From positions 1 to 36,604 of IMG/VR virus record IMGVR_UViG_3300042691_033021: a stretch of DNA of 36,604 bases; one strand, written 5' to 3'. Position numbers and translations under genes: made by a program. Every line of letters starts with the position of its first letter. Position 1 is the first letter of the stretch. Source of the DNA: a virus. The notes under the pieces are model-generated. The model searched no databases, was not told where the DNA came from, and saw nothing but the letters and a program-made list of their open reading frames with translations. Below are positions 1,016-25,935 of this stretch, one piece after another.

Positions 1016-1158
1016 CTGCTTACAGCTCCAGATATTGAGGCAGGGTCCCAGGCTCTACAACCTGTTTTTTTAGGATTCTCGTCTTTGGCGCAAAAACGTA
1101 TACCCGCACATCCGCTTAAAAGTAATATCAAAGATAGAATAAAGGCTTTTCGAAACAT
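1012..1158 (-). CDS. small lipoprotein (48 aa)
   Basis: This 48-residue protein starts MFRKAFILSLILLLSGCAG, a lipoprotein signal peptide with lipobox LLSGC, so it should be lipidated at Cys17. The mature part is only about 32 residues and has two more cysteines (RFCAK, KTGCRAW). The stop TGA overlaps the CHASE2 gene start (ATGA), so the two form one leftward operon. No Shine-Dalgarno sequence is seen; a TAAATA box lies only 4 nt before the ATG. I recognise no family. It may be a partner of the CHASE2 protein. The lipobox and coupling make it likely to be real despite its size. Confidence 0.65.
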   Translation of the reverse strand: MFRKAFILSLILLLSGCAGIRFCAKDENPKKTGCRAWDPASISGAVSR

Positions 1159-1160
1159 CT

Positions 1161-1178
1161 AGTATTTAACTAAATACT
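1161..1178. promoter_or_regulatory. Palindromic divergent TAAATA promoter
   Basis: AGTATTTA-AC-TAAATACT is an 8-bp inverted repeat that places a TAAATA box on each strand. The leftward box lies 4 nt from the lipoprotein ATG. The rightward box (1171-1176) lies just before the conserved GGGGAGTAG start of the Mn riboswitch, about where a transcript from a T4-late-type box would begin. The T4 late promoter consensus is TATAAATA. The reading as two back-to-back late promoters is inferred. Confidence 0.55.
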
Positions 1179-1179
1179 T

Positions 1180-1275
1180 TTGGGGAGTAGCCATCCATAA
1201 TTGGATTTCTAAATCGTCAACACGGTAGCAATACCCGGTTTAGTAACGAAGCGGCAAGACCATTACTTAGGAGAC
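1180..1275 (+). promoter_or_regulatory. yybP-ykoY (Mn2+) riboswitch leader of the terC-like gene
   Basis: The 5' leader of the TerC-family gene contains the conserved blocks of the yybP-ykoY motif in order: GGGGAGTAG (1182-1190), a small hairpin ATCCA-TAAT-TGGAT (1193-1206), CGTCAACACGG (1215-1225) and CGGCAAGACCATTAC (1252-1266). The ribosome binding site TAGGAGA (1268-1274) follows directly. This class binds Mn2+ and typically controls manganese exporters, including Alx/TerC and MntP. The motif next to the ribosome binding site suggests Mn2+ turns on translation. The call rests on remembered consensus; a covariance-model search would settle it. Confidence 0.82.
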
Positions 1276-1279
1276 AAGT

Positions 1280-2230
1280 ATGGAAATGTTGTTTTCGGCG
1301 GCTCTGCTGCCTTGGGTTGCGTTCTTTGTGATCGTAATCGCACTTCTGGCATTCGATCTAGGAGTTCTTAATAAGAAAGATCATGAAATCTCTGTTAAAG
1401 AGAGTCTATGGCTTTCTGCATTCTACATAGCTGTAGCATTACTGTTTGGACTAGGCGTCTGGTGGTATAGGGGAGCAGATGATGCTTTACTTTACTATAC
1501 AGGCTTTCTCGTAGAGAAAAGTCTAAGTTTAGACAATGTGTTTGTATTCGCACTGATTTTCACATTTTTAGGTATACCTAGAATGTACGAGCATCGTGTA
1601 TTAGTCTGGGGCATATTATTAGCCTTGATACTAAGAGCGATATTCATAGGATTTGGTGCGGCAGCTGTCAGTGAATGGCAATGGATATTGTGGTTCTTCG
1701 GTGCCTTCTTAATCTATACAGGTGTTAAGATGTTGTTCGCCGATGACGACAATGGTCCGGATTTTGAGAACAATAAGATCTATAAATGGATGCAAAGTAA
1801 AATGAACCTAAGCAAAGAATACAGAGGTCACGACTTCTGGTTCAAGGAGAATGGTGTAAGATATTATACTCCATTGTTCGTTGCTTTGGTTTTGATTAAT
1901 TTTGCGGATATTATATTTGCCGTAGATAGCGTACCCGCTATCCTAGCGATCACACAAGATCCTTTCATAGTCTATACATCCAACATCTTTGCTATCTTAG
2001 GACTTAGAGCACTGTATTTTGCTCTCAGTGCTATGATACATAGATTTCATTATTTGAAATACGCTCTAGCACTAATCTTAGTATTGATCGGTGTTAAGAT
2101 TGTATTAATGATGATTGGTATTAAATTGCCTGCAATATTAACCTTAGGTTTAACCTTTGGTCTGTTAGCAGCAGGTGTTGCCTATAGCATGTGGAAAACT
2201 AAGGAGGTGGAAAATGAAACCGCTGTATAA
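1280..2230 (+). CDS. TerC/Alx-family integral membrane (Mn) transporter
   Basis: This 316-aa protein has the length and hydrophobic pattern of Alx/TerC proteins. Conserved acidic membrane motifs are visible: FDLGVLNKK near residue 26, EKSLSLDNVFVFALIF near residue 80, and NFADIIFAVDSVPAILAIT near residue 210. E. coli Alx is about 320 aa and is linked to Mn2+ export under a yybP-ykoY riboswitch, exactly the arrangement seen here. The start has a good ribosome binding site (TAGGAGA, 5 nt away). The gene is on the opposite strand to nearly everything else and has its own promoter, riboswitch and terminator, which looks like an acquired cassette. Mn2+ is the best guess for substrate; family assignment is secure. 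Confidence 0.9.
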   Translation: MEMLFSAALLPWVAFFVIVIALLAFDLGVLNKKDHEISVKESLWLSAFYIAVALLFGLGVWWYRGADDALLYYTGFLVEKSLSLDNVFVFALIFTFLGIPRMYEHRVLVWGILLALILRAIFIGFGAAAVSEWQWILWFFGAFLIYTGVKMLFADDDNGPDFENNKIYKWMQSKMNLSKEYRGHDFWFKENGVRYYTPLFVALVLINFADIIFAVDSVPAILAITQDPFIVYTSNIFAILGLRALYFALSAMIHRFHYLKYALALILVLIGVKIVLMMIGIKLPAILTLGLTFGLLAAGVAYSMWKTKEVENETAV

Positions 2231-2306
2231 AATAACCAAGACAGATCTCTGGATAAGAGGGATCTTTGTGGCAGTAGCAGTAGCATTAGTTATTGCGCAT
2301 GAATAA
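2214..2306 (+). CDS. 30-aa single-span membrane peptide coupled to terC-like gene
   Basis: A 30-codon frame starts inside the 3' end of the TerC gene (17 nt overlap) behind a near-perfect ribosome binding site, AAGGAGGTGGAAA. The peptide starts MKPLYKITKTDLWIRG, then has one hydrophobic span (IFVAVAVALVIA) and ends HE. The stop codon abuts the operon terminator. The position suggests a small regulator or subunit of the transporter, by analogy with other transporter-associated small proteins; that is inference. The very strong ribosome binding site and exact fit between gene and terminator are the main support. Confidence 0.6.
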   Translation: MKPLYKITKTDLWIRGIFVAVAVALVIAHE

Positions 2307-2330
2307 AAAAGCCCCGAAAGGGGCTTTTTT
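2305..2330. terminator. Bidirectional rho-independent terminator
   Basis: A-tract, GCCCC-GAAA-GGGGC hairpin, then T-tract. It lies between the plus-strand terC operon and the convergent minus-strand glycosyltransferase gene and can end both transcripts. The glycosyltransferase stop codon lies within its T-tract side. Confidence 0.9.
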
Positions 2331-3045
2331 AATTCCAGTACTTACTGTTATCTATTTTGTCCCAGTATGCTTGATTATTACGATTCCAAAAGTTTTTAAT
2401 CAAGTACCAAGCCATACCAAAATAGCCCATCTTCTTAAATCTGCGACTGTCTTGTCCAAAGTAATGATCTACGATTTTAAACTTTTTAACGCTGTATTTT
2501 CTAGATAAGAAGAAGTCCTCGGAGGTAGAAAACTGTTCAGGAAATCCGCCCAACTCTTCAAACTTGCTTCTACGAGTAAGCATGAACGCACCTACAGCAA
2601 AAGGTGAGAAATATTTCAATACATGATTGATCGCATTAAAAATCTTAAATCCAATCTGTGCTCTAATATCATCATCATAGCATTTAGCATTCAACCCAAC
2701 GAGATCTAGATCATATTGTTCCAGTTCGTTGACAGCATCCTGTATAGTGTGATGACTAAAAAATCTAACATCAGCATCTATAAACAGTATGTAAGGAGTA
2801 GTGACTAATTGGGCGGCACGATTCCTTGCCACAGACACAGGACCACCATCGATAATTTCTATATTCATCCCCAAACCGTGATCTTGAATAACTTCTCTAG
2901 TACGATCAGTAGAGCAGTCGGCTATAATAATCTTAGCTCCTCCAAGACTTTGAAATCTTAAATCATCTATTAATCGATGTATGTATAGTTCTTCGTTCTT
3001 ACAGGGAACTACGATAGTAATAAGTTCACTTAGTCTTTTAGACAT
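2329..3045 (-). CDS. Family 2 glycosyltransferase
   Basis: This 238-aa protein begins with the GT-A nucleotide-binding strand ITIVVPCKNEE (residues 9-19), followed by IIIADCSTDRT and the metal-binding DxD motif FIDADV (Asp90, Asp92). The acceptor region includes GAFMLTRRSKFEELGGF, typical of GT2 enzymes. No membrane segments are evident, so it should act on the cytoplasmic face. It is the last gene of the leftward surface-gene block, near an LpxH-like phosphoesterase, which suggests modification of LPS, glycans or a phage surface protein. Substrate cannot be told from sequence. Confidence 0.88.
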   Translation of the reverse strand: MSKRLSELITIVVPCKNEELYIHRLIDDLRFQSLGGAKIIIADCSTDRTREVIQDHGLGMNIEIIDGGPVSVARNRAAQLVTTPYILFIDADVRFFSHHTIQDAVNELEQYDLDLVGLNAKCYDDDIRAQIGFKIFNAINHVLKYFSPFAVGAFMLTRRSKFEELGGFPEQFSTSEDFFLSRKYSVKKFKIVDHYFGQDSRRFKKMGYFGMAWYLIKNFWNRNNQAYWDKIDNSKYWN

Positions 3046-3105
3046 TTGCCTTCTACCTTAAATGAATCAAACTTTAACCAATAGGTCATAGTCCTTAATG
3101 CCTGT

Positions 3106-3954
3106 TCACACTGTTGTTGTGTTTGGAACTGTAGCATTATTCTTCCTGGTACGTCTTGCGGATTGTTTATGTGTACCGCTATCAATATCATCAGCCACAT
3201 CGTCTCGCTCCTTGGTCCATGTTACGATTTCCCAACGACCGTTATGATGTTCTACCAGTGCGGTCATTGATTCTACCCAGTCGCCGTCATTCATGTATAT
3301 TATACCGTCTATGTCTTTGATCTCTGCGTGATGTATATGTCCACAGATTACACCATCGAAACCACGCTTCTTACAGTACGCGGCTAAGTTACGTTCAAAT
3401 TGAAATATAAAATCCACCGCTTTCTTAACTTTAACCTTGAGATACTTGCTTAAACTCCAGTAGCCAAATCCCATACGGTGTCGCAGCCAATTAAATTTAT
3501 TATTTAAATTAAGAACAAAATCGTAGGCCTTGTCACCTAAGAAAGATATCCACGGTGCTAGTCTAGTAATCCCGTCAAATAGGTCGCCGTGTACTACAAG
3601 ATAATGTTTGGTATCTATACCCACGTGTTCTATTTGATTGACAACTTCAATATTGCCAAAGTTAATACCGTAGGGCATTAAAGGTCTTAGAAACTCATCG
3701 TGATTGCCAGCAACATAGATAACCCGGGTACCTCGCTTGGCATGTCCCATAACCCTACGAACTACGTTGGTATGACTTTGTTTCCAACGCCATTTGTTTT
3801 GTTGAATACGCCATGCGTCTATAATGTCTCCTACTAAGTAGAGAGTTTCGCAGGTGTTGTGTTTAAGAAAGTTATTGAGTTGTTCTGCCTTACAGTCTCT
3901 AGTACCTAAGTGAACATCAGAGATAAAAATAGAGCGATAAGTCTTGGCTGTCAT
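3106..3954 (-). CDS. LpxH-like metallophosphoesterase (UDP-2,3-diacylglucosamine hydrolase family)
   Basis: A calcineurin-like phosphoesterase with all metal-site motifs: SDVHLG (Asp13, His15), VGDIID, GNHDE, VVHGD and GHIHH. Overall it resembles LpxH-type UDP-2,3-diacylglucosamine pyrophosphatases of lipid A synthesis, though homologues of other specificity are common. I chose the ATG at 3954 (MTAKTYRS, 282 aa) over one 30 nt upstream because a TAAATA box (3960-3967) lies 5 nt before it. The C-terminal ~35 residues are Ser/Thr/Arg-rich and look disordered. With the neighbouring glycosyltransferase it may alter host lipid A or other envelope glycolipids. Fold certain, substrate not. Confidence 0.82.
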   Translation of the reverse strand: MTAKTYRSIFISDVHLGTRDCKAEQLNNFLKHNTCETLYLVGDIIDAWRIQQNKWRWKQSHTNVVRRVMGHAKRGTRVIYVAGNHDEFLRPLMPYGINFGNIEVVNQIEHVGIDTKHYLVVHGDLFDGITRLAPWISFLGDKAYDFVLNLNNKFNWLRHRMGFGYWSLSKYLKVKVKKAVDFIFQFERNLAAYCKKRGFDGVICGHIHHAEIKDIDGIIYMNDGDWVESMTALVEHHNGRWEIVTWTKERDDVADDIDSGTHKQSARRTRKNNATVPNTTTV

Positions 3955-3959
3955 GCCAA

Positions 3960-3967
3960 TATTTATC
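3960..3967 (-). promoter_or_regulatory. T4-late-like TAAATA box before the phosphoesterase
   Basis: On the minus strand this reads GATAAATA, 5 nt before the chosen ATG, with no Shine-Dalgarno sequence between. Its match to the T4 late box TATAAATA suggests a late promoter with a nearly leaderless transcript. Confidence 0.5.
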
Positions 3968-4008
3968 GCTCTAAAGTGTGTCAAAGATTACAGATCAGTT
4001 ACAAGTAA

Positions 4009-4167
4009 TCAAATCTGAACTATGGTCCAACGGTGTGTAAAATGCTTACCTTCGGCCTTGCGTTTCAAGATTTTTTGGAACTCTAGTCTTTTAAGTTCTG
4101 CCATCTTCTTGGCGTCGTGGTCGAAGCAAGCCTTATACAGTTCCGCTATGAGTCGTTTCTGTTTCAT
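4009..4167 (-). CDS. Small basic hypothetical protein (52 aa)
   Basis: This 52-residue protein is rich in Lys and Arg ([21 protein letters not shown], then [14 protein letters not shown]) and probably helical. The start at 4167 is set by a perfect AAGGAGG ribosome binding site about 9 nt upstream; a longer reading to 4245 would lack one and overlap the next gene. It lies between the secreted 98-aa protein and the phosphoesterase. I recognise no domain; small basic proteins of this kind are common in T4-like phages. Confidence 0.6.
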
Positions 4168-4207
4168 AGTCTTGCCCCTCCTTGTAATGTATTTACAAAA
4201 AAGATTT

Positions 4208-4504
4208 TTATACTGAATCGAAAAGAAATTTTGATTCCTGTCCAACGCCTATGATGCAGGCAATCTCAGTGGTCATCTGCAATAGGGTCCATGAACCTTC
4301 TTTGGCATTAACGAAAAGTGCATATCGAGTATCGTCTACAGGATTTCTAGCAGTCCATACTGGTTTTTCGTTGTAGTTTTCTGTCAACCCTCTAATTATA
4401 GATTGCACGTTGTCACAGAGCACAGGTTTACTTGATTCAAATGCTTGGGCGTAGGCTATAGAGCTGGTTAGGCAGAATAGGAACGCCGCGATAACTGTAC
4501 GCAT
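4208..4504 (-). CDS. Small secreted protein (98 aa)
   Basis: An N-terminal signal peptide ([21 protein letters not shown], cleavage probably after AYA) is followed by about 77 mature residues with two cysteines (VLCDN, IACIIG) that could form a disulphide. It should be periplasmic or exported. A GTG 3 nt upstream is an alternative start; the AAGGAG ribosome binding site fits either. It follows the autotransporter gene but is separated from it by a terminator. No family recognised; the context is envelope genes. Confidence 0.65.
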
Positions 4505-4532
4505 CACAGCATACTCCTTAAAACTATATTTA

Positions 4533-4557
4533 ATAAAAAAGCCCGCCGAAGCGGGCT
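4533..4557 (-). terminator. Rho-independent terminator of the autotransporter transcript
   Basis: On the minus strand: AGCCCGC-TTCG-GCGGGCT followed by TTTTTATTAA. It is a perfect 7-bp stem with a UUCG tetraloop, 20 nt after the autotransporter stop codon. Confidence 0.92.
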
Positions 4558-4576
4558 AGTTATTTGCCTATATTGA

Positions 4577-7500
4577 TTAGAAGCCTTTTGTGATACTGAT
4601 TCCTACTGAGTTGATGTTAGGATTTTGTCCCTTTTGTTGTACGCCAACACTAATTCCAACTCTTGTAGTTTTATCTACGGCATAACTTACACCGGCACCA
4701 ATACTGGCATTAGTCGAGCCACCGTTAAGCACTGTTCCTCTAAATGTTGATAATCCACCAATTTCACTAGTGCCTCTATACTCAGTTGGCTTATCAGTAA
4801 TTTGTTGTGTCACTCCAACTGACACACTGCCTGTTAGTTTTTCTGTAAACTGTTTGGCTACGCTAATACCTGCTAGAACATCTGTTCTAGTTCTGTTTGT
4901 AGCATCTACAGTTAACGGAAATACAGCACCTGTTTCTGTGTAACCGCCTATGCGTGTTTCACTGTGACGAACACCGACATAAGGTGTAACTGTTACAGTT
5001 TCTGTGACTGGAACACTGTAACTACCTTTAACTTGATATGCAGTATTGTCGACTGAGCTGATTCCTACGCCTGTTTCTGGTCCATTCCGTGTTATAGTCA
5101 TTGTGCCTTGATTAGCGGCTGCACTGGCTGTAACTGACAATCTATCTTTACTATAGGTTACGAATCCGCCAACTGCCGGATTACTATTCATTGTTACACC
5201 ACCAATATTTGGATTGTTCGCAAATGAATTAGTGAATACACCAAATCTCCAATTGTCTGTTAATTTTTTACCTACTGTTAGACCGCCAGTATATAAATCA
5301 CCTGTGCCTGCTTTGCTACTGCCAGCGTTGACTGACACACATGCACCGTCTTTGCCAAACACTGCACAGTCGTTACCTAAAGCACCTGTAACCACACTGC
5401 CTTGCAGACTAGTCATGTTTGACACATTCTTTGCTGTGGCATCTATACTTGTCTGTGTGGCTGTGGCATCTGGTGTAATGTATAACTTAACATCAGTTAA
5501 ACTATAACGTAGGTAGTTACTGGTGCTGTTGATTGCATCATATGTACCACTTACACTGCCTGCTGACAGCACAGTGTATCTACCATAACCCGCTGGCACA
5601 TCATTAATTGTTATGCCGCCATCTAATGAGGCTAAACCAGTTACTAATATTGGTTGGTTGACACTCATTGTTGTAACACCTGGAGCAGACTGGGTGTAAG
5701 TACCTAACGTTCCACCTGACACATTTAATGTGCCGGTATTATTGACACTGGTTGTGCCACCAGTTATGTTTAATATACCAGTGTTGGTAATCAATCCTGT
5801 TGTGCCACTTGTGGTCATTGTACCTGTATTAGCCACTGTGCCAACTGTACCTGTATTAGTGTAAGTACCGTTATTTGTACCGTTAGCCATTGTGCCGCTG
5901 TTGTTGATAACACTATTATTAATCCAATCGCCTGTTGTACCAGCATTGATTAATGTGCCATTGTTAGTGTAAAGACCTGTTACTATACCACCAGCGTTGT
6001 TGTTGAATGTGCTGTTAGTAGTAACTGTGCCTGTTACAGTTCCAGTGTTATGGAATGTACCATGTGCTTCTGTGTTGTTGATACTGCCAATAGTGCCAGT
6101 ATTGTCGACAGTTCCGCCATTGTAGGTTATTGAAATGATAGTACCAGCATTATTAACCACATGATTGTTATATGCTAGTTCACTTACAGTTCCTCCGGCG
6201 TTATTATTAAACACGCCTGTGTTGGTAACAGCACCGGTAGTACCTGCGTTGTTAAATGTTCCAACGTTTGAAACTGTGCCCATAGTACCACCTGTGTTGG
6301 TAAATGTGCTGTAGTTAGTACCATTACCTAGTGTACCAGTGTTAGTGAATGTGGCTGTATTACCGTCGCCATTAAAGCCGTTAGTCCAAGCACCACCTGT
6401 GCCACTGTTAGTAAATGTACCTAGGTTAGTAATAGTTGTTACTGTGCCACTGTTGGTAAATGTACCGCCTAGGTTGTTAGTAACTGTACCTGTATTACCA
6501 GCATTAGTAAACGTTCCACTGTTAGTCACATTACCAGTCACTCCAGAAGCATTGTTAGTAAATGTTCCACTGTTGTCAACTGTGCCTGTAGTACCGTTAT
6601 TAGTGAATGTACCGCTGTTAGTCACATTACCTGTTACACCAGAAGTATTGTTAGTAAACGTTCCACTGTTATTAACATCACCAGTAGTACCGTTGTTAGT
6701 AAAGTCACCGGTGTTAGTTACTGCACCAGTAGTACCGTTGTTAGTGTAAGTGCCAGCATTGGTTACGGTTAACACAGTTGTACCACTAGCGTTGGTTCCG
6801 GTTGAACCTGCGTTGTTAGTAACTGCTACTGGTCCTGGAGGTGCTAGGTCACTTACTGCTCCTGCTGTACCTGGATTGGCAACAGTTCCTGTGCCGCCCA
6901 AAGTTGGTACTGTATAACTGGTATACGTGGTGTCATAAATGTAACTTACTTCACCGATTTGTACGCTGTCGCAGGCTAGTGTGCCTAATGCCGCTTGACA
7001 TCCTGCTACGCTACCGTATGTGTCAATAGCCTTGATGCTAGGGAAAGTGATGAAATAGTAGAAGTAAGCATTGTTATTTGTAATATTATACTGACTGCTA
7101 GTTGTATAACGACTGCTACTTAGTGCGATAGATTCTGCATTAACAATAGTTGTCCAGTTAACTCCGTCATTACTACCGTATAAACTAAACTTGCTAGGAT
7201 CTCTTGGCTCAAAATCGTTAGCAGTGGTAAATGTTACTCCACGGATAACACGTGGTGTGTCTAACTTGATAGTAAAACCAGCATTAGCTCTATCAAAGTT
7301 TAAGTATTTGGTGTTTGGATTACCGTCTACTGCCTTGGCAGCATCCTCGCCTGCAGGACTATTATTGCTGGTAGGTGTGATACTTGTTATATTAGTGTTT
7401 GTTAACACGTTAACATAGTTAGGAGTAGGTGTACTACTCCCACCACTACCACTAGAACTAGCAGTTTGACCATCTGCTAAAGGTGTTGTGCTGGCCCATG

Positions 7501-7948
7501 TATAACTAGAAAGATCTGAACTAGAAACACTGGTGTCCATGTTTGTAAATGAAGCACTGTCGCCGATACTAAATCCTTCTGCTGTAGAAATCACGTTGCC
7601 CAACCATCCGCTACCTATATAAAAGATAGCACCGTTTCCTAACGCAGTAATCTGACCTGTGCTGTGTATAGTTCTATTAAAACTACCATCACTGTTATAC
7701 AATGCTAGACCATAATCTCCACCACCATTATCCACAAATTTAAAATATTGACCAGCAGTAGTAGTAACTGTGGTAAATGTGCTGTCATATGGTGCTATAA
7801 AATTTGAAGCATTTAATGTGTTACCGCTCCAATAGTATTGTACATCGAATATTTGATTGGCGCTAAAAGCACCGTCTGTGATTGCTGCCTTTGATGATAA
7901 GGCAGTCATAGCTAAAGCCATAGCCATGGCTAGTTTTTTAAGTTTCAT
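4577..7948 (-). CDS. Giant autotransporter with discoidin-like domain and N/T/G-rich repeats
   Basis: This 1123-aa protein has a classical signal peptide (MKLKKLAMAMALAMTALSSKAA). Residues ~200-340 resemble a discoidin (F5/8 type C) fold (AAKAVDGNPNTKYLNF, SLYGSNDGVNWT). Residues ~375-750 are a long run of short repeats of the type TNTGTFTNNGTTG, expected to form a beta-helix or solenoid. From about 860 to the end is a type V autotransporter beta-barrel, closing with a terminal Phe (ITKGF) as expected for BAM-dependent insertion. It should be exported and displayed on the host surface. It follows the curli genes, shares their GGGAGCGAA leader, and ends in a strong terminator. A phage-encoded autotransporter is unusual; it could alter adhesion or block superinfection (inference). 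Confidence 0.85.
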   Translation of the reverse strand: MKLKKLAMAMALAMTALSSKAAITDGAFSANQIFDVQYYWSGNTLNASNFIAPYDSTFTTVTTTAGQYFKFVDNGGGDYGLALYNSDGSFNRTIHSTGQITALGNGAIFYIGSGWLGNVISTAEGFSIGDSASFTNMDTSVSSSDLSSYTWASTTPLADGQTASSSGSGGSSTPTPNYVNVLTNTNITSITPTSNNSPAGEDAAKAVDGNPNTKYLNFDRANAGFTIKLDTPRVIRGVTFTTANDFEPRDPSKFSLYGSNDGVNWTTIVNAESIALSSSRYTTSSQYNITNNNAYFYYFITFPSIKAIDTYGSVAGCQAALGTLACDSVQIGEVSYIYDTTYTSYTVPTLGGTGTVANPGTAGAVSDLAPPGPVAVTNNAGSTGTNASGTTVLTVTNAGTYTNNGTTGAVTNTGDFTNNGTTGDVNNSGTFTNNTSGVTGNVTNSGTFTNNGTTGTVDNSGTFTNNASGVTGNVTNSGTFTNAGNTGTVTNNLGGTFTNSGTVTTITNLGTFTNSGTGGAWTNGFNGDGNTATFTNTGTLGNGTNYSTFTNTGGTMGTVSNVGTFNNAGTTGAVTNTGVFNNNAGGTVSELAYNNHVVNNAGTIISITYNGGTVDNTGTIGSINNTEAHGTFHNTGTVTGTVTTNSTFNNNAGGIVTGLYTNNGTLINAGTTGDWINNSVINNSGTMANGTNNGTYTNTGTVGTVANTGTMTTSGTTGLITNTGILNITGGTTSVNNTGTLNVSGGTLGTYTQSAPGVTTMSVNQPILVTGLASLDGGITINDVPAGYGRYTVLSAGSVSGTYDAINSTSNYLRYSLTDVKLYITPDATATQTSIDATAKNVSNMTSLQGSVVTGALGNDCAVFGKDGACVSVNAGSSKAGTGDLYTGGLTVGKKLTDNWRFGVFTNSFANNPNIGGVTMNSNPAVGGFVTYSKDRLSVTASAAANQGTMTITRNGPETGVGISSVDNTAYQVKGSYSVPVTETVTVTPYVGVRHSETRIGGYTETGAVFPLTVDATNRTRTDVLAGISVAKQFTEKLTGSVSVGVTQQITDKPTEYRGTSEIGGLSTFRGTVLNGGSTNASIGAGVSYAVDKTTRVGISVGVQQKGQNPNINSVGISITKGF
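5700..6830 (-). repeat. Degenerate short tandem repeats in the autotransporter passenger
   Basis: Coding repeats of roughly 8-11 codons with the core (F/V)TN(S/T)GT(F/V)TNN, dozens of imperfect copies built on Asn, Thr, Gly and Ser. At DNA level the unit is rich in gttagt and accatt-type words. Such arrays often expand and contract by recombination, so copy number may vary between related phages. Confidence 0.8.
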
Positions 7949-8011
7949 CCCGATTTCGCTCCCGGTTAGTAAAAATATTTAAATTTAAATCGTTTTTAAA
8001 TAAACTCTCAG

Positions 8012-9112
8012 TTAATTCTGTGTAATAGTTATAGTTGTGGTAGAACCTTTGTTTACGTTCTGTATTATCTGCTGACCATTTTGATTTAATGTAAACGTAA
8101 CATTTTTTGTAGTGTCAAAAGTCACTGTAGCATTATGACTACCTGCTTTATACAAAGTGACTTTGGTTTGGTCGTCATTGAAGTAGTATAATAATCCTAG
8201 AGATTTATTAGCGTTATATCCAGGTAATATAGGATTATCTAATTCGTCACCTAGTAGACTAGCATTCTGTCTGTCTAATTCATTTAATGAATTGTAAGCC
8301 AACAGGTCGGCATCTAAATCATTTCGATCCAGGGAAGATTTTTTATCTAAAGCGTTTTCATCTAGTTTTGTGTATTTTAATAAATCTACATCTAGTTCAT
8401 TGAAATCTAATAAACCTTTTTCCTTTTTTACAAGTCCTGCCTTGTCTGCTTCTGTAACTTCTTTTGGTTTACTAATAATCAACATGTTGTTGATATTGGC
8501 CTGATCAATTTTAATTACTACTGGTTCACTGGGGGGTTGATAGGCGCTATTTACTAGTGTGGCCTGATAAGGTACATCGAGTATAACTACACCACCAAAG
8601 TTGCTGACTTCAATCGCGCCTGTCACACAACCTTTATCATCACAACTAGGAAGAAGCATAACGAGACTTCTTCCTAGTTCGTCTACAGTCATTGAAAAAT
8701 CTGTACCACGCACAGCAATACTAGCAGTTGGCGTTTTAATCGCTACCTGCTGAGGATTGTTTTTAGCAATCTGCCCACTAGCGTAACGTGCTGTCCCCAG
8801 CGCCATCTTCATGCCTAATTTGCCTGTGCCTTTTTTAGGATCATAGACAAAATCATCTATGACAATTTTGCTATGCTCTGTTAGTTTAACTGTGGTCTTA
8901 TCTTCAAACGTCAATTCTGCCTTAGCTCTAGCCGTGCTAACAGCATCATTCATTTCTACATCCGTATTAACCTTAGCCGAGATTGATTTCTTATCTCGGA
9001 TAATTTCTGTAGGTCCAGTCTGTTCAGTTACCTTACCGACAGCAGCGAAGGTATTAATCGGACTGAGTGATGTTAATAGTATTAGAGCTGCCGTTGCTGG
9101 TAATAACTGCAT
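8012..9112 (-). CDS. FecR-domain secreted protein
   Basis: This 366-aa protein has an N-terminal signal peptide ending near NTFAA and a FecR-type domain over residues ~25-200 (VGKVTEQTGPTEIIRD, IKTPTASIAVRGTDFSM). A C-terminal part contains acidic repeats of the form LDxNxLDxDLL (residues ~240-290) and a Thr-rich end. Stand-alone FecR-domain proteins are usually periplasmic or surface ligand-binding proteins. The start is unusual: ATG at 9112 lies inside the curlin gene, so the whole signal peptide is encoded in another frame of the last curlin repeats. An in-frame stop shortly upstream and a GGAG about 12 nt before the ATG support this start. It is part of the curli operon; exact role unknown. 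Confidence 0.82.
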   Translation of the reverse strand: MQLLPATAALILLTSLSPINTFAAVGKVTEQTGPTEIIRDKKSISAKVNTDVEMNDAVSTARAKAELTFEDKTTVKLTEHSKIVIDDFVYDPKKGTGKLGMKMALGTARYASGQIAKNNPQQVAIKTPTASIAVRGTDFSMTVDELGRSLVMLLPSCDDKGCVTGAIEVSNFGGVVILDVPYQATLVNSAYQPPSEPVVIKIDQANINNMLIISKPKEVTEADKAGLVKKEKGLLDFNELDVDLLKYTKLDENALDKKSSLDRNDLDADLLAYNSLNELDRQNASLLGDELDNPILPGYNANKSLGLLYYFNDDQTKVTLYKAGSHNATVTFDTTKNVTFTLNQNGQQIIQNVNKGSTTTITITQN

Positions 9113-9722
9113 TTTTATTAGATACTCCGCTTTGTGTTAGTGTAACTCCGGTAGGCGCACCGCTAGTGCCGCTTCCTGAAACTGTGATTTCTCCATTGTG
9201 CAAACCAACGCCGCTGGCAGTATGTGTAACGTTATTATAACTGCCATTTATATTGATTTTACTCTGGACCACACCACCACTAAGTGTTTGTACAGTATTG
9301 TTATTATTACCTACTATTTCAGATCTAATTACGCTGGCATTGCAAGTTGAGCTAAGTGCTGTGCCGCAGCCTATCGTTTGATTGTTTCCACTACCCAAAG
9401 CAGATATTACAACAGTCGAACCCGTACCGCTGGTTTCATTATTGATAATTAGACTAACTGTATTACTGGCTCCGATCTGAGAGATAGTGACATCATTTAG
9501 ATCACCTCTAATAATTGCCGCATCGTCATTATTACCGCTACCTCCTACGTTGCCATTGATTAAGTTTCCAGCTCCTGTTTGTGTTATTGAAATATTCGAA
9601 TTATCTCCGATCTGTTCCATATAAACATCATTTGCAAGACCCAATCCCGGCATTGCAGCCACGATCAGAGTTGCGAGTACTTTTCTCGACAACCCGCCAA
9701 CGCCTGTCATCCTTGTTTTCAT
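9054..9722 (-). CDS. Curlin-like amyloid subunit (CsgA/CsgB type)
   Basis: This 222-aa protein has a signal peptide (cleavage near GLGLAND) and then Asn/Gln/Ser/Gly-rich repeats with the curlin pattern of spaced polar residues (MEQIGDNSNISITQTGAGN, LNDVTISQIGASNTVSL, GVTLTQSGVSNKNAV). These are expected to fold as stacked beta-arches of a functional amyloid. It is longer than E. coli CsgA (about 150 aa) and its repeats are irregular. Adjacent csgG and csgF genes would supply its secretion channel. The ribosome binding site is GGAGCGAA, the same leader word used by csgF and the autotransporter. Whether it is nucleator or major subunit is unclear. Confidence 0.82.
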   Translation of the reverse strand: MKTRMTGVGGLSRKVLATLIVAAMPGLGLANDVYMEQIGDNSNISITQTGAGNLINGNVGGSGNNDDAAIIRGDLNDVTISQIGASNTVSLIINNETSGTGSTVVISALGSGNNQTIGCGTALSSTCNASVIRSEIVGNNNNTVQTLSGGVVQSKININGSYNNVTHTASGVGLHNGEITVSGSGTSGAPTGVTLTQSGVSNKNAVITSNGSSNTINITQSD

Positions 9723-9744
9723 TTTACTTTCGCTCCTTGGTACA

Positions 9745-10962
9745 TTATTTTTGTACCTTTATAAATTGTATTGGAATCCACCCCTCTTTAGTATTAAAGC
9801 GAACTCGAGCAAACCATTGTTCGAGTTCTAAAACTTCCACGGTGGTCCCCGGTGAAAGTTTAGCCAAGGTCTCGCTGGCTCTATATTTCTGTGTGCGTAT
9901 GTTTACCCAGTCTTGAATCACTCCTTGTTTTTTTTCTGTTTCAGATACTGGTGTATTTGCCTCGGTGCTGTGTCGGACTTCACTGACTTTTTCGTTTCCT
10001 CCATCAGTTTTTCCGTCATCGGACTGTGGTGCTGCGGGTGCAGTTTCGATTCTTCCTTGCGGTGCGGTCTGTGGTTGAACCAACTCATCTTTCTTGTCCT
10101 CCTTTTTTTCAGGAACAATAACTGGTGCTGTCTGCAAAGGTACAATAACAGGCTGTACAGTTATTGGTTCCACTATTACAGGTTTTGGTTTTTTAAATCT
10201 CCATAACCCTTTCTTTTCACCTTCTACGATCATTTCATAAACTGCTTGTTCTATGGCTACACGAACTGCGTAGGTGGTGGGTTCATTTAACGCCATTCCA
10301 TTTTCTAATTCTAAACTTTTAGTTCCAGCATCTACGAATCTCAAAACACCAACGTTATGTTGTGTGCTATAAATTGTTTTTGTCACTGCATTGGTCAGTA
10401 AAACTTCCCCACTGTTCACGCTCACTAATCTAAGACTAATTACGACCTCATCAACACGATATTGCTGACTACCACCTATACCCAAAAACCTAGCACCATT
10501 ACCACCACTGCGTATATTACTATCGTAGCCAATAATGCCGCCTTCAATCATTATACCGGCAACAGTCATTGGTCTGAGAGGTTTAGCATCTTTGCCTTCG
10601 TAAACTTCTCGTTGATTTCGGATGAGCTGTCTTTCTTTGACAAGATTATCTAACCCAACACGTTCAACTACCTTGAACCAATTTTTACTATCTTGTAAGG
10701 ATTTAATTAAAAAAACTTCAGCACCTTGTGTCACTGCTTTTGAAAACACTGCTAATCTATCATTGGGTTTCATCTGTCCGGTTTTATCAGCGAATCCATA
10801 AACTGCTATGGTCATAGAAGGACCGTCTAGTTCTGGTAGTTTTTCTATAAGATTTTCTCTAGGTTTTAGAGCAATGGGTTCTTCTCTAGATTGCTCCATT
10901 TGTATGTGAGCGCATCCAGATAAAATTGAAATTAGAAATAGTGAAATAACATATTTGGTCAA
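9745..10962 (-). CDS. csgG: CsgG curli secretion channel lipoprotein fused to a C-terminal SH3 domain
   Basis: This 405-aa protein starts with a lipoprotein signal (LISILSGCAH, lipidation at Cys17). Residues ~45-260 match CsgG, the outer-membrane curli channel: MTIAVYGFADKTGQ, NWFKVVERVGLDNLVKERQ, ITYDS-like IIGYDSNIRSGGNGAR, and VRVAIEQAVYEMI. E. coli CsgG is about 277 aa. Here about 80 residues of Pro/Val/Gln-rich linker follow, then an SH3b-like domain (DWVNIRTQKYRASE, LAKLSPGTTVEVLEL, GWIPIQFIKV) at ~345-405. SH3b domains often bind peptidoglycan or peptides, so the tail may anchor or gate the channel in the periplasm. The start overlaps csgF by 4 nt. CsgG homologues occur in some marine phages; this fusion is noteworthy. 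Confidence 0.9.
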   Translation of the reverse strand: MTKYVISLFLISILSGCAHIQMEQSREEPIALKPRENLIEKLPELDGPSMTIAVYGFADKTGQMKPNDRLAVFSKAVTQGAEVFLIKSLQDSKNWFKVVERVGLDNLVKERQLIRNQREVYEGKDAKPLRPMTVAGIMIEGGIIGYDSNIRSGGNGARFLGIGGSQQYRVDEVVISLRLVSVNSGEVLLTNAVTKTIYSTQHNVGVLRFVDAGTKSLELENGMALNEPTTYAVRVAIEQAVYEMIVEGEKKGLWRFKKPKPVIVEPITVQPVIVPLQTAPVIVPEKKEDKKDELVQPQTAPQGRIETAPAAPQSDDGKTDGGNEKVSEVRHSTEANTPVSETEKKQGVIQDWVNIRTQKYRASETLAKLSPGTTVEVLELEQWFARVRFNTKEGWIPIQFIKVQK

Positions 10963-11405
10963 AATGCAAAACTCGCAATCGGTACAACAATTTCAGTTCT
11001 ACTACCGTTGGCTTCAATAATAGTAAGGGTAACGTCTGTACCGCTCTTTACCCAACTGATACTGGTTCCTTGGAAGTTCATGCTTCCGTTGTTACCGCCA
11101 CCTTCTGCAAACATTTGGTCGGCTAATTGTTTAGATAATTGTGCGTAGATTCTAGCCTCTACGTTCACTAAAAACTTACTGAGATTAGTTTGTTTAGCAG
11201 CAGCTTCAGCTTTGGCAATAGCTGCTAGTTCTTCTGATCTTATTTCTTTTTTCTTGTTTTCTTCGAGTTGGTAGATGGAAAGGACATGCTGACTGTATCC
11301 GTTGCCTGGTATAAAGGCTGGACTTTGGAATTGATGCACAAGCTCAGCCTGAACTGAACTAGAAATCGCAATTATAGGTAGTAAAATTAATACCCGTTTT
11401 AACAT
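10959..11405 (-). CDS. csgF: CsgF curli assembly factor
   Basis: This 148-aa protein has a signal peptide ending near VQAEL and the CsgF signature: a mature N-terminus ELVHQFQSPAFIPGNG (E. coli: LVYQF...PSFGG), which in the family plugs into the CsgG pore, followed by NLSKFLVNVEARIYAQLSKQ and a beta-rich C-terminus. Length is close to E. coli CsgF (138 aa). It is the first gene of the curli operon, preceded by a TAAATA box and a GGGAGCGAA ribosome binding site, and overlaps csgG by ATGA. CsgF couples secretion to nucleation of curlin at the cell surface. Confident family call. Confidence 0.9.
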   Translation of the reverse strand: MLKRVLILLPIIAISSSVQAELVHQFQSPAFIPGNGYSQHVLSIYQLEENKKKEIRSEELAAIAKAEAAAKQTNLSKFLVNVEARIYAQLSKQLADQMFAEGGGNNGSMNFQGTSISWVKSGTDVTLTIIEANGSRTEIVVPIASFAF

Positions 11406-13002: not shown

Positions 13003-13010
13003 TATTTATC
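13003..13010 (-). promoter_or_regulatory. T4-late-like GATAAATA box before the internal protein gene
   Basis: GATAAATA on the minus strand, 7 nt before the ATG at 12995, with no Shine-Dalgarno sequence. It overlaps the 3' end of the bilin reductase gene. Late expression would suit a head protein. Confidence 0.5.
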
Positions 13011-13686
13011 GTATTTCTGGGAACAAGCAATCCTGGATAAACACCCTAACATCTTCTTCATTTAAGCCCAGACTAGTCATTACCCTAGGGGTATGCGGAT
13101 TCTGCTTCTGATTTTGAGCATAAAAATTCTGCTCAAAAGTTGCATCCGCTGTCATATTATTAGTTTCACCCACGGTTTCCACGTAATGATTTACCAGGAT
13201 ATGAGCTAGACTTTCTATCTGGCTTAGTTCAGATTCATCATTTACATTTCCTGCGGCCACCATGCTAGAACTGAAAATACGCTGCGCCCAGTCCGGAAGC
13301 TCACGTTTACGGATCCATTCGTATCTGCTAACTTCTTCAGCAAAATATTGTATCATGGGGTGATTTCTATCTGTGGTAGGACTATAGTCTATAAAGCAGC
13401 CTGTGATTTTGTTTTTGCCTGCAATAACATCGAATCCAAAGATAGGAGCAGGATTATGAATATGAGGAAAGATACAGCAGTGCATCATCCATAGTCCTCT
13501 AGTATTTCTAGCATCGACTACGTCTATATGGGCTCTACGATAATTATTAGAAGTCCAAACCCTGTTAACCCAGCCAGGCTGATTAAACCTATCCATGCCG
13601 GGCTCAAAAGTTTCTACGCCAGTATTATTGAAACTCTCTTCCAGCAGTTTCTGAATACGGATCAGTGTGTCCCAAACTTGACTCAT
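13006..13686 (-). CDS. Ferredoxin-dependent bilin reductase (PcyA/PcyX/PebS family)
   Basis: This 226-aa protein has the FDBR core: RRAHIDVVDA, then MMHCCIFPHIHNPAPIFGFDVI, FIDYSP, RELPDWAQRIFSS and a C-terminal FYAQNQKQNPHT...LFPEI resembling PcyA. His69 and Asp86 are 17 residues apart, exactly as PcyA His88 and Asp105, the substrate-protonating pair; no clear equivalent of PcyA Glu76 is seen. FDBRs reduce biliverdin using ferredoxin to phycobilins. The gene overlaps the heme oxygenase gene by 62 nt, giving a two-step heme-to-bilin pathway. PcyX-type FDBRs paired with heme oxygenase are known from uncultured marine phages, and this is likely related. The exact bilin product cannot be told from sequence. 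Confidence 0.85.
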   Translation of the reverse strand: MSQVWDTLIRIQKLLEESFNNTGVETFEPGMDRFNQPGWVNRVWTSNNYRRAHIDVVDARNTRGLWMMHCCIFPHIHNPAPIFGFDVIAGKNKITGCFIDYSPTTDRNHPMIQYFAEEVSRYEWIRKRELPDWAQRIFSSSMVAAGNVNDESELSQIESLAHILVNHYVETVGETNNMTADATFEQNFYAQNQKQNPHTPRVMTSLGLNEEDVRVFIQDCLFPEIR

Positions 13687-14218
13687 TGTTTAACTCTCTC
13701 ATGATTTTTATAGCCCACTCAAAGGCTACACGAGCTTCATCGCCGAGATCGTCTGTAAGTTCTGCACGGATCTGTTCTTTGAGTTTTTCGGGGTCTTTGA
13801 ATTTATAAAAACGACCTTGCCCAGGTACACGTTTGGCTATCATCTGTCCACCATATAGATCTCCCATATGACGGCAGTAAAGGTGGGCTTTGATAAGATG
13901 TTTTCTTTGTGGATCGTTTAGTAGTTCTAGCAAATAGTTATGATATTCTATAGTACTAGGTAACCATTTATAAACGTGATTCTTACCTGCCAATTCTGTA
14001 AAATCCTGATATATAGCCCATGCACGTTCTATATCAGGAAGATTTTTAAAATTGCCTTGTATTTGATTCCCCATTTCTATGGGAGAATAGATAAGGACCA
14101 TCTGCCACAGATAGTTGGCATAATCTTCTTTACTGATGTTACCGCTTAGTAATTTTTTTGCGAACTCTGTGCGTTCTGCATCAGTATGTAAATCTTTAGT
14201 GATTTCTCTTAGACTCAT
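13625..14218 (-). CDS. Heme oxygenase (biliverdin-producing)
   Basis: This 197-aa protein matches the HO-1/HemO family: EITKDLHTDAE with the proximal heme ligand His11, an IYSPIE segment, and the distal-helix motif GDLYGGQMIAKRV (Gly119-Gly124). Heme oxygenase uses O2 and reductant to cut heme into biliverdin, Fe2+ and CO; the product is the substrate of the downstream bilin reductase. The start overlaps the clpS stop (ATGA) and the 3' end overlaps the reductase by 62 nt, so the three are co-translated. Possible roles are pigment supply, iron release, or phytochrome chromophore synthesis. Family assignment is secure. Confidence 0.9.
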   Translation of the reverse strand: MSLREITKDLHTDAERTEFAKKLLSGNISKEDYANYLWQMVLIYSPIEMGNQIQGNFKNLPDIERAWAIYQDFTELAGKNHVYKWLPSTIEYHNYLLELLNDPQRKHLIKAHLYCRHMGDLYGGQMIAKRVPGQGRFYKFKDPEKLKEQIRAELTDDLGDEARVAFEWAIKIMRELNNESSLGHTDPYSETAGREFQ

Positions 14219-23785: not shown

Positions 23786-24740
23786 GACCAAAATAGGAAT
23801 CATTTTTGAGCCAATCATAGTAAATTTGGAATCCTTCATCTACATCTATTTTTGGATTGAATCCAAAATCATTTCTAGCTCTTGTAATGTCTAGGGCTCC
23901 GCGGCTAGGAAAGTCAGCATCTTTGTCGCGGACTTCTATGTTACCCTTTCCAGCTAATTTTACTGCGAGTTCGGCGGCACTTAGCAACGTTTTACTGTGA
24001 CTTTTGGTGATGTTGTATGTGCCGTTGGCAGCTCGATCTGCAAGGGTGGCAGCAACGAATCCTTCGGCTGCATCGTCAACATAAGTAAAATCTAGAGTTT
24101 CATTTCTACCATTTACTCTGAGAGTCTCACCCTTCATAGCAGTGAGCAGAAATTTTGATATAACACGATCCTCTACATCCAAAGGACCGTAAACGGCACT
24201 TGGCCTTAGAATGGTATGTTCAATGCCATATTTACGGCTGTAATCTTTGACTAACCATTCTCCTGCCAATTTCAAAATACCGTATTGACCCTGAGGGCGA
24301 CAGACAGCATCTTCGGTCACATAGTCTTCGAAATCTCCATAGACCATACTGGAACTGGCATAAGTGAATCTACGAACTTTGTGTTGGACAGCTTTTTCTA
24401 ATAATATCAATAATCCAGTGCTCATTACTGTACTGCCCAAAACTGGATCAGCGTTTACAACTTTTTGTCTAGGAAAACTAGCCAGATGTATTATCGAATC
24501 TATTTGATATTTTGGCAAGACATAATCAAACATACTGGCTTGAAGAATGTCTACCTCAAATACATGAGAAGTAGATATCAATTTTTTTCTTTCTCGGATG
24601 AGATGATCTATCTGGGTTTGAGGGATAATACCGTAATTGGTCATGTTATCAAACACAACCACAGTATGACCTTTTTGCTCTAGTTTTCTTACAATATTAT
24701 GTCCTATTAGACCGAGACCGCCTGTTACTAAAATATTCAA
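23772..24740 (-). CDS. NAD-dependent sugar epimerase/dehydratase (extended SDR)
   Basis: This 322-aa extended short-chain dehydrogenase has the NAD-binding TGGLGLIG (residues 6-13), the Ser of YASSSMVYG (~129-131) and the catalytic pair Tyr153/Lys157 (YGILK). Also typical are DILQ, LASFPRQ and DFTYVDDAAEGFV. Closest in feel are UDP-glucose 4-epimerase or dTDP-glucose 4,6-dehydratase relatives that make nucleotide sugars. It overlaps the upstream SGNH hydrolase by 4 nt. Likely modifies a host or phage surface glycan along with the distant glycosyltransferase; the substrate is not determined. Confidence 0.88.
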   Translation of the reverse strand: MNILVTGGLGLIGHNIVRKLEQKGHTVVVFDNMTNYGIIPQTQIDHLIRERKKLISTSHVFEVDILQASMFDYVLPKYQIDSIIHLASFPRQKVVNADPVLGSTVMSTGLLILLEKAVQHKVRRFTYASSSMVYGDFEDYVTEDAVCRPQGQYGILKLAGEWLVKDYSRKYGIEHTILRPSAVYGPLDVEDRVISKFLLTAMKGETLRVNGRNETLDFTYVDDAAEGFVAATLADRAANGTYNITKSHSKTLLSAAELAVKLAGKGNIEVRDKDADFPSRGALDITRARNDFGFNPKIDVDEGFQIYYDWLKNDSYFGLDKH

Positions 24741-25150
24741 CGTGTCTGCTCCGCTAATACCTTATATCCTCGACCGGTTGGATGAATACCGTCGGCACTC
24801 ATGTGATTTTTAGGTCTTGGTAAGATGATATCACCGTATTCTTTGGCAATACGCACTATTGCATCATGCGGTATAGGTTTACGATCTTGACCAGGGTCGA
24901 TCCAGAACACTCTATCACCTTTGATAATAGATCGCATCTGGCGAAGTTCTTTTTCAGTTTTTACACCCTTATGGTCATTGGCACCCAAACTAATGATAAT
25001 TGTTTTGGCTGGCTTTTCGGAGGCCTTGAGCAAATAGTCTTTATTCCATTGCCAACTATTCCATCCGCCTTTAGAAAAACTTACACATTCTGGACGAGCC
25101 ATAGCAGTCCCTACGGCTATGCTGTCACCTAAGATCAGACATTCTAACAT
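24737..25150 (-). CDS. SGNH/GDSL hydrolase (esterase-like)
   Basis: This 137-aa protein has the SGNH blocks: GDS (Ser10 nucleophile), Gly in KGGWNSWQW, GAND (Asn58) and DGIHP (Asp120, His123). It is shorter than typical GDSL lipases, without signal peptide, so it should act in the cytoplasm or on virions. Such small SGNH proteins are frequent in T4-like marine phages; deacylation or deacetylation of glycans is a plausible role. It is first in an operon with the epimerase, under a consensus sigma70 promoter and a good AAGGAGA ribosome binding site. Confidence 0.87.
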   Translation of the reverse strand: MLECLILGDSIAVGTAMARPECVSFSKGGWNSWQWNKDYLLKASEKPAKTIIISLGANDHKGVKTEKELRQMRSIIKGDRVFWIDPGQDRKPIPHDAIVRIAKEYGDIILPRPKNHMSADGIHPTGRGYKVLAEQTR

Positions 25151-25167
25151 AATATCTCCTTTCGTGT

Positions 25168-25196
25168 ATTATAGCATCTCTATTTACGACGGTCAA
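25168..25196 (-). promoter_or_regulatory. Consensus sigma70 promoter for SGNH-epimerase operon
   Basis: Minus-strand TTGACC, 17-nt spacer, TATAAT. It begins immediately after the pqqA terminator hairpin. Confidence 0.85.
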
Positions 25197-25224
25197 TAAA
25201 AAGCTCACCGTAGTGAGCTTTTTT
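25197..25224. terminator. Terminator after pqqA
   Basis: AAGCTCAC-TACG-GTGAGCTT on the minus strand, an 8-bp stem, followed by TTTATTG; the A-tract on the other side makes it bidirectional. It ends the short pqqA transcript. Confidence 0.88.
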
Positions 25225-25239
25225 AGATTTATCTATGTA

Positions 25240-25311
25240 TTATCGGTTAGCGATGTACATAGTGATCTCAAAACCGAAACGCATTTCAGTTGCTTCTGGC
25301 TTGGTCCACAT
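25240..25311 (-). CDS. pqqA: PqqA, precursor peptide of the cofactor PQQ (23 aa)
   Basis: A 23-codon frame reads [15 protein letters not shown] (1-15) then ITMYIANR (16-23). It matches PqqA of Klebsiella in length and pattern (MWKKP at the start, G-x-E-V-T-x-Y then NR at the end). The two residues that PqqE cross-links, Glu15 and Tyr19 in E-x-x-x-Y, are exactly in place. PqqA is the ribosomal peptide from which PQQ is cut, the cofactor of methanol and glucose dehydrogenases. There is a strong ribosome binding site (AAGGAG, 8 nt spacing), a TATAAT promoter and its own terminator, so it is a full expression unit. No pqqBCDE are visible; host enzymes would process it. I am not aware of phage pqqA as a common gene. 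Confidence 0.88.
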
Positions 25312-25340
25312 AATGCTTCTCCTTTTTAACAACAATAAAA

Positions 25341-25374
25341 ACATACTATTGCACAAGTATGTATCTGTATTATA
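25341..25374 (-). promoter_or_regulatory. pqqA promoter and leader hairpin
   Basis: A perfect TATAAT (25369-25374) on the minus strand, with no good -35 box, is followed at the predicted transcript start by a 7-bp inverted repeat ACATACT...AGTATGT (25341-25362) that would form a hairpin at the 5' end of the mRNA, which often stabilises short transcripts. Confidence 0.65.
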
Positions 25375-25428
25375 TGATAAAAACTACCAGAAAACCATAC
25401 TGAAAATCATTAATTTTGCCTAGTTAGA

Positions 25429-25935
25429 TTAACTATTCAAAACCTTAGCAACACTATTCATTACTGCGGCAATACGACCAATGTCACGAAGATTCTCGAC
25501 TGAGTAGCCTTCCTTCTTGAGTGTGTCGTAGTGTGCCTTAACGCAGAAGTGACACTTACCAACAATACTTGCGGCAAGACTAAATGCCTCAAAGTTTGCC
25601 TTTGTGGTTCCGCCATGACTAGCAATAGCGTTCATGCGTAACTGTGCGGGCAAGCCCTTTAACTGTTCGTCATCTGCCATTTCAACGTAGGGATACCAAA
25701 CGTTGTTCTGTGCCATAATACTAGCGGCAGTCATTGCTGATTCTGCATGTACAGGAGCATCTCCTAACATAACGGCTAAAACTTTGCCATTACCAGTTGC
25801 GGCGAGTGCGGCTACAGCACAACCCATAGCCACATCAGCATCTAATGTACTACGCAAAAGGACAGCGTCCAAGTTTAACTTGGTGTCCTTTGCATAGTCT
25901 GGCAACGCTTCTTTGATAGCGTCGATAAATGCCAT
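25429..25935 (-). CDS. ahpD: AhpD alkylhydroperoxidase
   Basis: This 168-aa all-helical protein carries the AhpD active site CHFCVKAHYDTL (CxxC plus His, residues ~130-137). In mycobacteria and others AhpD reduces oxidised AhpC using lipoamide. Here its start overlaps the ahpC stop by 1 nt (TAATG), so the pair is co-expressed. Together they would detoxify peroxides during infection. Assignment is secure by motif and partner gene. Confidence 0.9.
   Translation of the reverse strand: MAFIDAIKEALPDYAKDTKLNLDAVLLRSTLDADVAMGCAVAALAATGNGKVLAVMLGDAPVHAESAMTAASIMAQNNVWYPYVEMADDEQLKGLPAQLRMNAIASHGGTTKANFEAFSLAASIVGKCHFCVKAHYDTLKKEGYSVENLRDIGRIAAVMNSVAKVLNS

Follow-up and report, generated by a model that had tools for sequence, protein, structure and literature searches.

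Morons are small genes that sit between phage genes and have a promoter and a terminator of their own; the classic examples were described for temperate phages. Viral pqqA, the gene for the PQQ precursor peptide, is already known as such (PMC7678222, PMC13188868): in the accessible part of the VP_266 report it is described for this Lake Baikal methylotroph phage (PMC7678222), and pqqA, pqqD and pqqE are listed among the viral genes of reservoir sediments (PMC13188868). One methylotroph has five pqqA copies, with a stand-alone copy among the two most transcribed (PMC9851590). As regards control sites, predicted phage Pho boxes are unreliable without binding tests (PMC10976474).

The stretch of DNA analysed here (the window) is a virus record from IMG/VR that spans 36,604 bases and may be a fragment. 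The following features were located at and around its pqqA gene:

24737 to 25150, minus strand: SGNH/GDSL-like hydrolase, the downstream neighbour (Pfam PF13472, E 5.2e-7, bits just under the cut-off)
25151 to 25428, minus strand: 278-bp gap between the AhpD and SGNH genes, holding the cassette (from comparison with relatives)
25195 to 25230, minus strand: intrinsic terminator AAAAAGCTCAC-TACG-GTGAGCTTTTT 3′ of pqqA (predicted fold −13.8 kcal/mol; equivalent in relative L386)
25240 to 25311, minus strand: pqqA, encoding the 23-aa PQQ precursor peptide with Glu15 and Tyr19 (Pfam PF08042, NCBIfam TIGR02107, purifying selection in the family)
25319 to 25324, minus strand: Shine–Dalgarno sequence AAGGAG, 7 nt 5′ of the ATG
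25341 to 25362, minus strand: 7-bp hairpin ACATACT-loop-AGTATGT at the predicted mRNA 5′ end (predicted fold −5.9 kcal/mol)
25369 to 25374, minus strand: −10 box TATAAT
25396 to 25413, minus strand: pqq box TTAATGATTTTCAGTATG, a putative control site covering the region from about −50 to −34, where a −35 element would normally lie (motif score)
25429 to 25935, minus strand: AhpD-like protein of the CMD family, the upstream neighbour (Pfam PF02627, E 1.5e-9)

The pqqA frame spans 72 nt including the stop codon. Its peptide scored above the curated cut-offs over the whole profile of both PqqA models, namely PF08042 (E 1.6e-10; 41.1 bits against a cut-off of 21.1; profile positions 1–19 fully covered) and the NCBIfam equivalog TIGR02107 (E 4.7e-11; 42.2 bits against a cut-off of 20). 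The original prediction of a PqqA match with its Glu15/Tyr19 cross-link pair is thereby borne out, and by these two curated models the identity of the peptide is established at the sequence level. The pair, spaced E-x-x-x-Y, was present in all matches; it was forced by the search pattern used for IMG/VR and was not forced in the tblastn matches from cultured phages. The phage setting is established from the virus record and from the genes that share it, which include ribonucleotide reductase subunits, an exonuclease, a tail spike and an endolysin-like protein. There is no complete pqqABCDE operon: pqqB-E were found neither beside the window pqqA nor at the other phage loci of the set, two bacterial operons aside (see below), and the gene is stand-alone, as predicted. 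Across 50 whole records, no PqqE match exceeded the cut-off; the weak radical-SAM matches returned all fell far short of it. The interval first proposed, 25240–25374, extends from the stop codon as far as the −10 box and so leaves outside both the terminator and the control box (25396–25413).

The promoter, leader hairpin, ribosome binding site and terminator that had been claimed from the letters alone were all seen in the sequence or in predicted folds. A Shine–Dalgarno-like site lies within 16 nt of the start in 118 of 124 phage pqqA genes. Of 91 phage leaders, 35% have a stem of at least 7 bp at the 5′ end, compared with 3.2% after shuffling, and among leader hairpins with stems of at least 6 bp, 37 of 40 differ in sequence; these figures suggest that the hairpin protects the mRNA. 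Searches of Rfam around pqqA gave weak sub-threshold matches and nothing above threshold. The hairpin at 25195–25230 was not listed by a simple terminator scan of the window, probably as its T-run forms part of the paired stem. The SGNH gene has a promoter-like site of its own (TTGACC-17-TATAAT, 25196–25168).

A tblastn search with the 23-aa peptide against 50,697 phage records gave 12 matches. Ten were stand-alone, the only ones among these records: nine in phages of Methylophilales or Methylophilaceae (Methylophilales phages MEP301, MEP401, MEP402, Venkman and four Melnitz strains; Methylophilaceae phage P19250A) and one in an uncultured virus, the Manatee Spring podovirus. pqqA is thus a host-type metabolic gene lying inside phage genomes, including complete genomes of cultured phages. 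As had been anticipated of a gene short enough to escape gene callers, none of the ten carriers has a PqqA annotation: nothing is annotated at the site in MEP301, MEP401, MEP402, Venkman and P19250A, and in Melnitz and the Manatee Spring virus the site is overlapped by a hypothetical protein annotated on the other strand. The accessible portions of the open-access literature on these isolates make no mention of a phage pqqA. This tally does not include MEP431–434 and some other listed methylophages, and because not every listed isolate was covered we claim no carriage rate. The remaining two matches, both labelled ‘Acinetobacter phage’ (L008, L009; MD-2021a), contain a full bacterial pqqABCDE operon and look like bacterial contigs; they were set aside. 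Methylobacterium-type and Pseudomonas-type PqqA probes added no phage carriers by tblastn.

A DNA pattern scan of IMG/VR found at least 120 contigs with pqqA, the counts being lower bounds biased by the search pattern, and in every IMG/VR contig among the matches listed the peptide has 23–25 aa. The phage contigs are not independent; when linked by two shared proteins they form 28 groups, with 62 contigs in the largest, and pqqA is present in several phage groups. Four loci (L025, L041, L076, L095) carry a differing type of PqqA (EIRLGMEITAY), perhaps from another host group, and L025 and L076 still have a scoring box.

The box emerged from motif discovery on 124 phage upstream regions as TTMATGRTTTTC-nn-TAK, with a log likelihood of 737 against 88 for shuffled sequences. 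Scores of at least 12 were reached by 78% of phage upstream regions and by 0.3% of shuffled ones, and 21 of 22 phage copies outside the training set scored at least 14. Sites scoring at least 14 in the phage loci numbered 83 within 250 nt 5′ of pqqA and 11 elsewhere (2.2 million positions); the whole window holds one site that scores at least 11, at 25412. In phage copies the distance from the start of the box to the start of the −10 box is most often about 37 nt (36–38). Its place at about −50 to −34 means that an activator could replace the −35 element.

Host upstream regions contain related sites. Among 126 host pqqA upstream regions of mixed taxa, 47% scored at least 12 (0.8% when shuffled). 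A separate search in Methylophilaceae-like hosts returned the palindrome TCATGAnnnTCATKAG, with 97 sites near pqqA and 2 elsewhere, and eight whole Methylophilaceae genomes yielded 30 distinct box sites, 26 of them about 100–150 nt ahead of a pqqA match and one upstream of what was read as pqqB (L428). In Methylophaga the pqqA upstream element is TCAGGAAAATCCTGAG. Judged by motif score and position, the same PQQ-specific box precedes phage pqqA and host Methylophilaceae pqqA; we found no published account of it in the open-access literature.

We propose that the window carries a substrate-supply auxiliary metabolic gene, a self-contained pqqA cassette in a tailed phage of Methylophilaceae methylotrophs that is wired to host PQQ regulation, and we give this reading a probability of roughly 0.8. 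The cassette would comprise the box, the −10 box, the 5′ hairpin, the ribosome site, 23 codons and the terminator. We infer that transcription would be switched on in infected cells by a host regulator that binds the box, that the hairpin would stabilize the short message, and that the expressed peptide would be cross-linked at Glu15–Tyr19 and processed by host PqqD/E, PqqB and PqqC. The resulting rise in PQQ could benefit the phage by keeping methanol dehydrogenase supplied with cofactor after shutdown of host expression. PqqA is the sole PQQ component consumed one-for-one, and a phage copy could therefore sustain cofactor supply. On the part played by the box, the evidence tips somewhat towards an operator of a Methylophilaceae regulator dedicated to the PQQ precursor, with the related palindrome TCAGGAAAATCCTGA in Methylophaga; unrelated phages would then have converged on box plus pqqA, so that host demand sensing would drive viral production of the PQQ precursor. 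Methanol dehydrogenase itself was not recognized in the window, and as a regular partner of pqqA it was rejected: of the 50 records searched, all of them related or bearing pqqA, 1 encodes it, so the two do not generally go together. The phage contig with both (L410; G017, 72 kb; pqqA at L056) resembles the Baikal phages in combining pqqA with a PQQ-dependent alcohol dehydrogenase.

The hosts possess the rest of the pathway: pqqA was found in 149 of 150 Methylophilaceae genomes, usually in 2–12 copies, and PqqE scored above its cut-off in 39 of 41. The peptide is identical to a host peptide in 40 of the 124 phage copies; that of the window differs at 2 of 23 residues from its closest host counterpart in the compared set. 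The 103 distinct phage coding sequences encode 46 peptides, with pS 0.59, pN 0.10 and pN/pS 0.18. Because the search pattern forces some residues, free positions were also counted alone, giving a pN/pS of 0.34 at pattern-free positions and 0.20 for codons 18 and 20–23. These codon statistics show purifying selection on the phage pqqA family. Together with the growth of the cultured carriers on Methylophilales or Methylophilaceae and the box shared with Methylophilaceae pqqA, the shared peptides support the methylotrophic host that had been predicted; for uncultured contigs the host is assigned from pqqA and the box and not independently.

It is conceivable that the peptide instead counters the host PQQ pathway, for example by occupying PqqD/PqqE, or that the phage box diverts the regulator. 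A short peptide with an operator could in principle titrate either protein, and hosts already have many copies. We nevertheless judge this improbable: the cross-link pair and the NK/NR ending at the C-terminus are conserved, and peptides identical to host ones are frequent, as expected of a working substrate, and as a decoy one extra box against 2–12 host boxes would be weak until the phage genome had replicated.

Comparison with relatives showed how the gene comes and goes. Where relatives join the AhpD and SGNH genes directly without pqqA the gap is 3–88 bp, and where pqqA is present it is 251–308 bp (L295, L321, L342). In the relatives of the window pqqA behaves as a cassette of about 200 bp that is repeatedly gained or lost; of 50 long related contigs, 16 carry it, among them a record of 364 kb. 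L386, whose AhpD is 95% identical, has no pqqA in its whole 128-kb record and keeps the equivalent terminator. In L308 and L314 (the same contigs as L336 and L337) the box, the −10 box and the start of the leader run straight into a terminator with no gene between them, an arrangement that in its sequence is a deletion scar of pqqA (near 3115 in L308). On the AhpD tree the best fit requires 19 changes in pqqA presence, at least six of them forced by well-supported branches, although most branches are weakly supported and L267, scored as lacking pqqA, is a contig cut inside the gene. Most relatives with AhpD and SGNH genes lack pqqA, which is therefore dispensable to that group; those relatives perhaps infect other hosts. 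Absence from close relatives with conserved flanks had been named in the original prediction as evidence against the gene. Here pqqA occupies the same spot in some relatives and is cleanly absent from others, a pattern that looks like an accessory cassette and does not refute the gene.

The frequent changes on the tree, and scars that retain box and promoter after the gene has gone, are also what would be seen of a host fragment that was picked up by chance, hitch-hikes without benefit and is on its way out. This is distinctly unlikely, since purifying selection acts over 103 distinct copies, the box and its spacing are conserved, and several phage groups carry pqqA.

The neighbouring genes raise another use for the cofactor. 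The order AhpC-AhpD-pqqA, which places pqqA beside peroxide-defence genes in the window and its relatives, could mean that PQQ is wanted as an antioxidant during infection and not as a dehydrogenase cofactor; the pqqA neighbourhoods of the cultured methylophages are quite different, without such annotated genes, and make this very unlikely. That the ORF arose by chance or that the contig is contaminated with bacterial DNA, for which one could cite a length of only 23 aa and unremarkable simple promoter and terminator scans, is refuted by curated-model E-values of about 1e-10, by complete cultured-phage genomes that carry pqqA and by the phage genes that flank it.

Other parts of the window also hold distinctive genes. 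Positions 9054–11405 encode the curli proteins CsgG (E 8e-54) and CsgF (E 9e-15) and a curlin-repeat protein (E 4.5e-6), the last a possible fibre subunit that is said to be absent from Melnitz and pelagimyophages. At 13006–14218 a heme oxygenase (E 2e-22) adjoins a protein resembling ferredoxin oxidoreductases (phrog_7278); as a pair the two might make bilins, in a phage that probably infects a non-photosynthetic host. Unusually for a phage, positions 2–9112 encode a CHASE2 domain protein that is truncated by the contig end, a repetitive protein of 1123 aa carrying an F5/8 type C domain, a FecR-domain protein and, from the opposite strand, a TerC membrane protein.

A metabolic gene very common among methylotroph phages has been missed by gene callers, even in isolates that were published without it. 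Supplying PqqA would be an economical move, in which the phage gives a single consumable substrate and the host keeps the enzymes. The common box offers a handle on the regulation of the methylotroph PQQ precursor, as well as a host marker for uncultured phages, and since cultured OM43 phage–host pairs carry the gene (Venkman, Melnitz, MEP301, MEP401/402) these ideas are testable.

Set beside the known systems, the presence of pqqA in published isolates, the box, the scar and the cassette behaviour appear to be unreported. In build, with its own promoter and terminator and its presence or absence between conserved flanks, the pqqA cassette is a moron, to which it adds a host-type control box. 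As here, the accessible part of the VP_266 report proposes phage PqqA as an auxiliary gene for PQQ and methanol oxidation in Methylophilaceae; that case concerns one viral population that also encodes methanol dehydrogenase, and the same text describes no operator, cassette structure, gain or loss, or presence in cultured phages (PMC7678222). The sediment viruses likewise have pqqA in viral contigs, but there it is a list entry without anatomy, read as phosphate solubilization (PMC13188868). Methylotrophs with multiple pqqA genes also have several copies per genome, some away from pqqBCDE and differently expressed, although these are chromosomal (PMC9851590, citing Ge et al, 2015), and the host boxes found here mostly lie farther from the ATG than phage boxes. 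Closest in its regulation is the cyanophage system, where pstS and other genes are under host PhoB via Pho boxes: in both, a phage auxiliary gene has a host-type operator, but for the Pho boxes the regulator is named and its binding shown (PMC10976474), whereas the regulator of the phage pqq box is putative.
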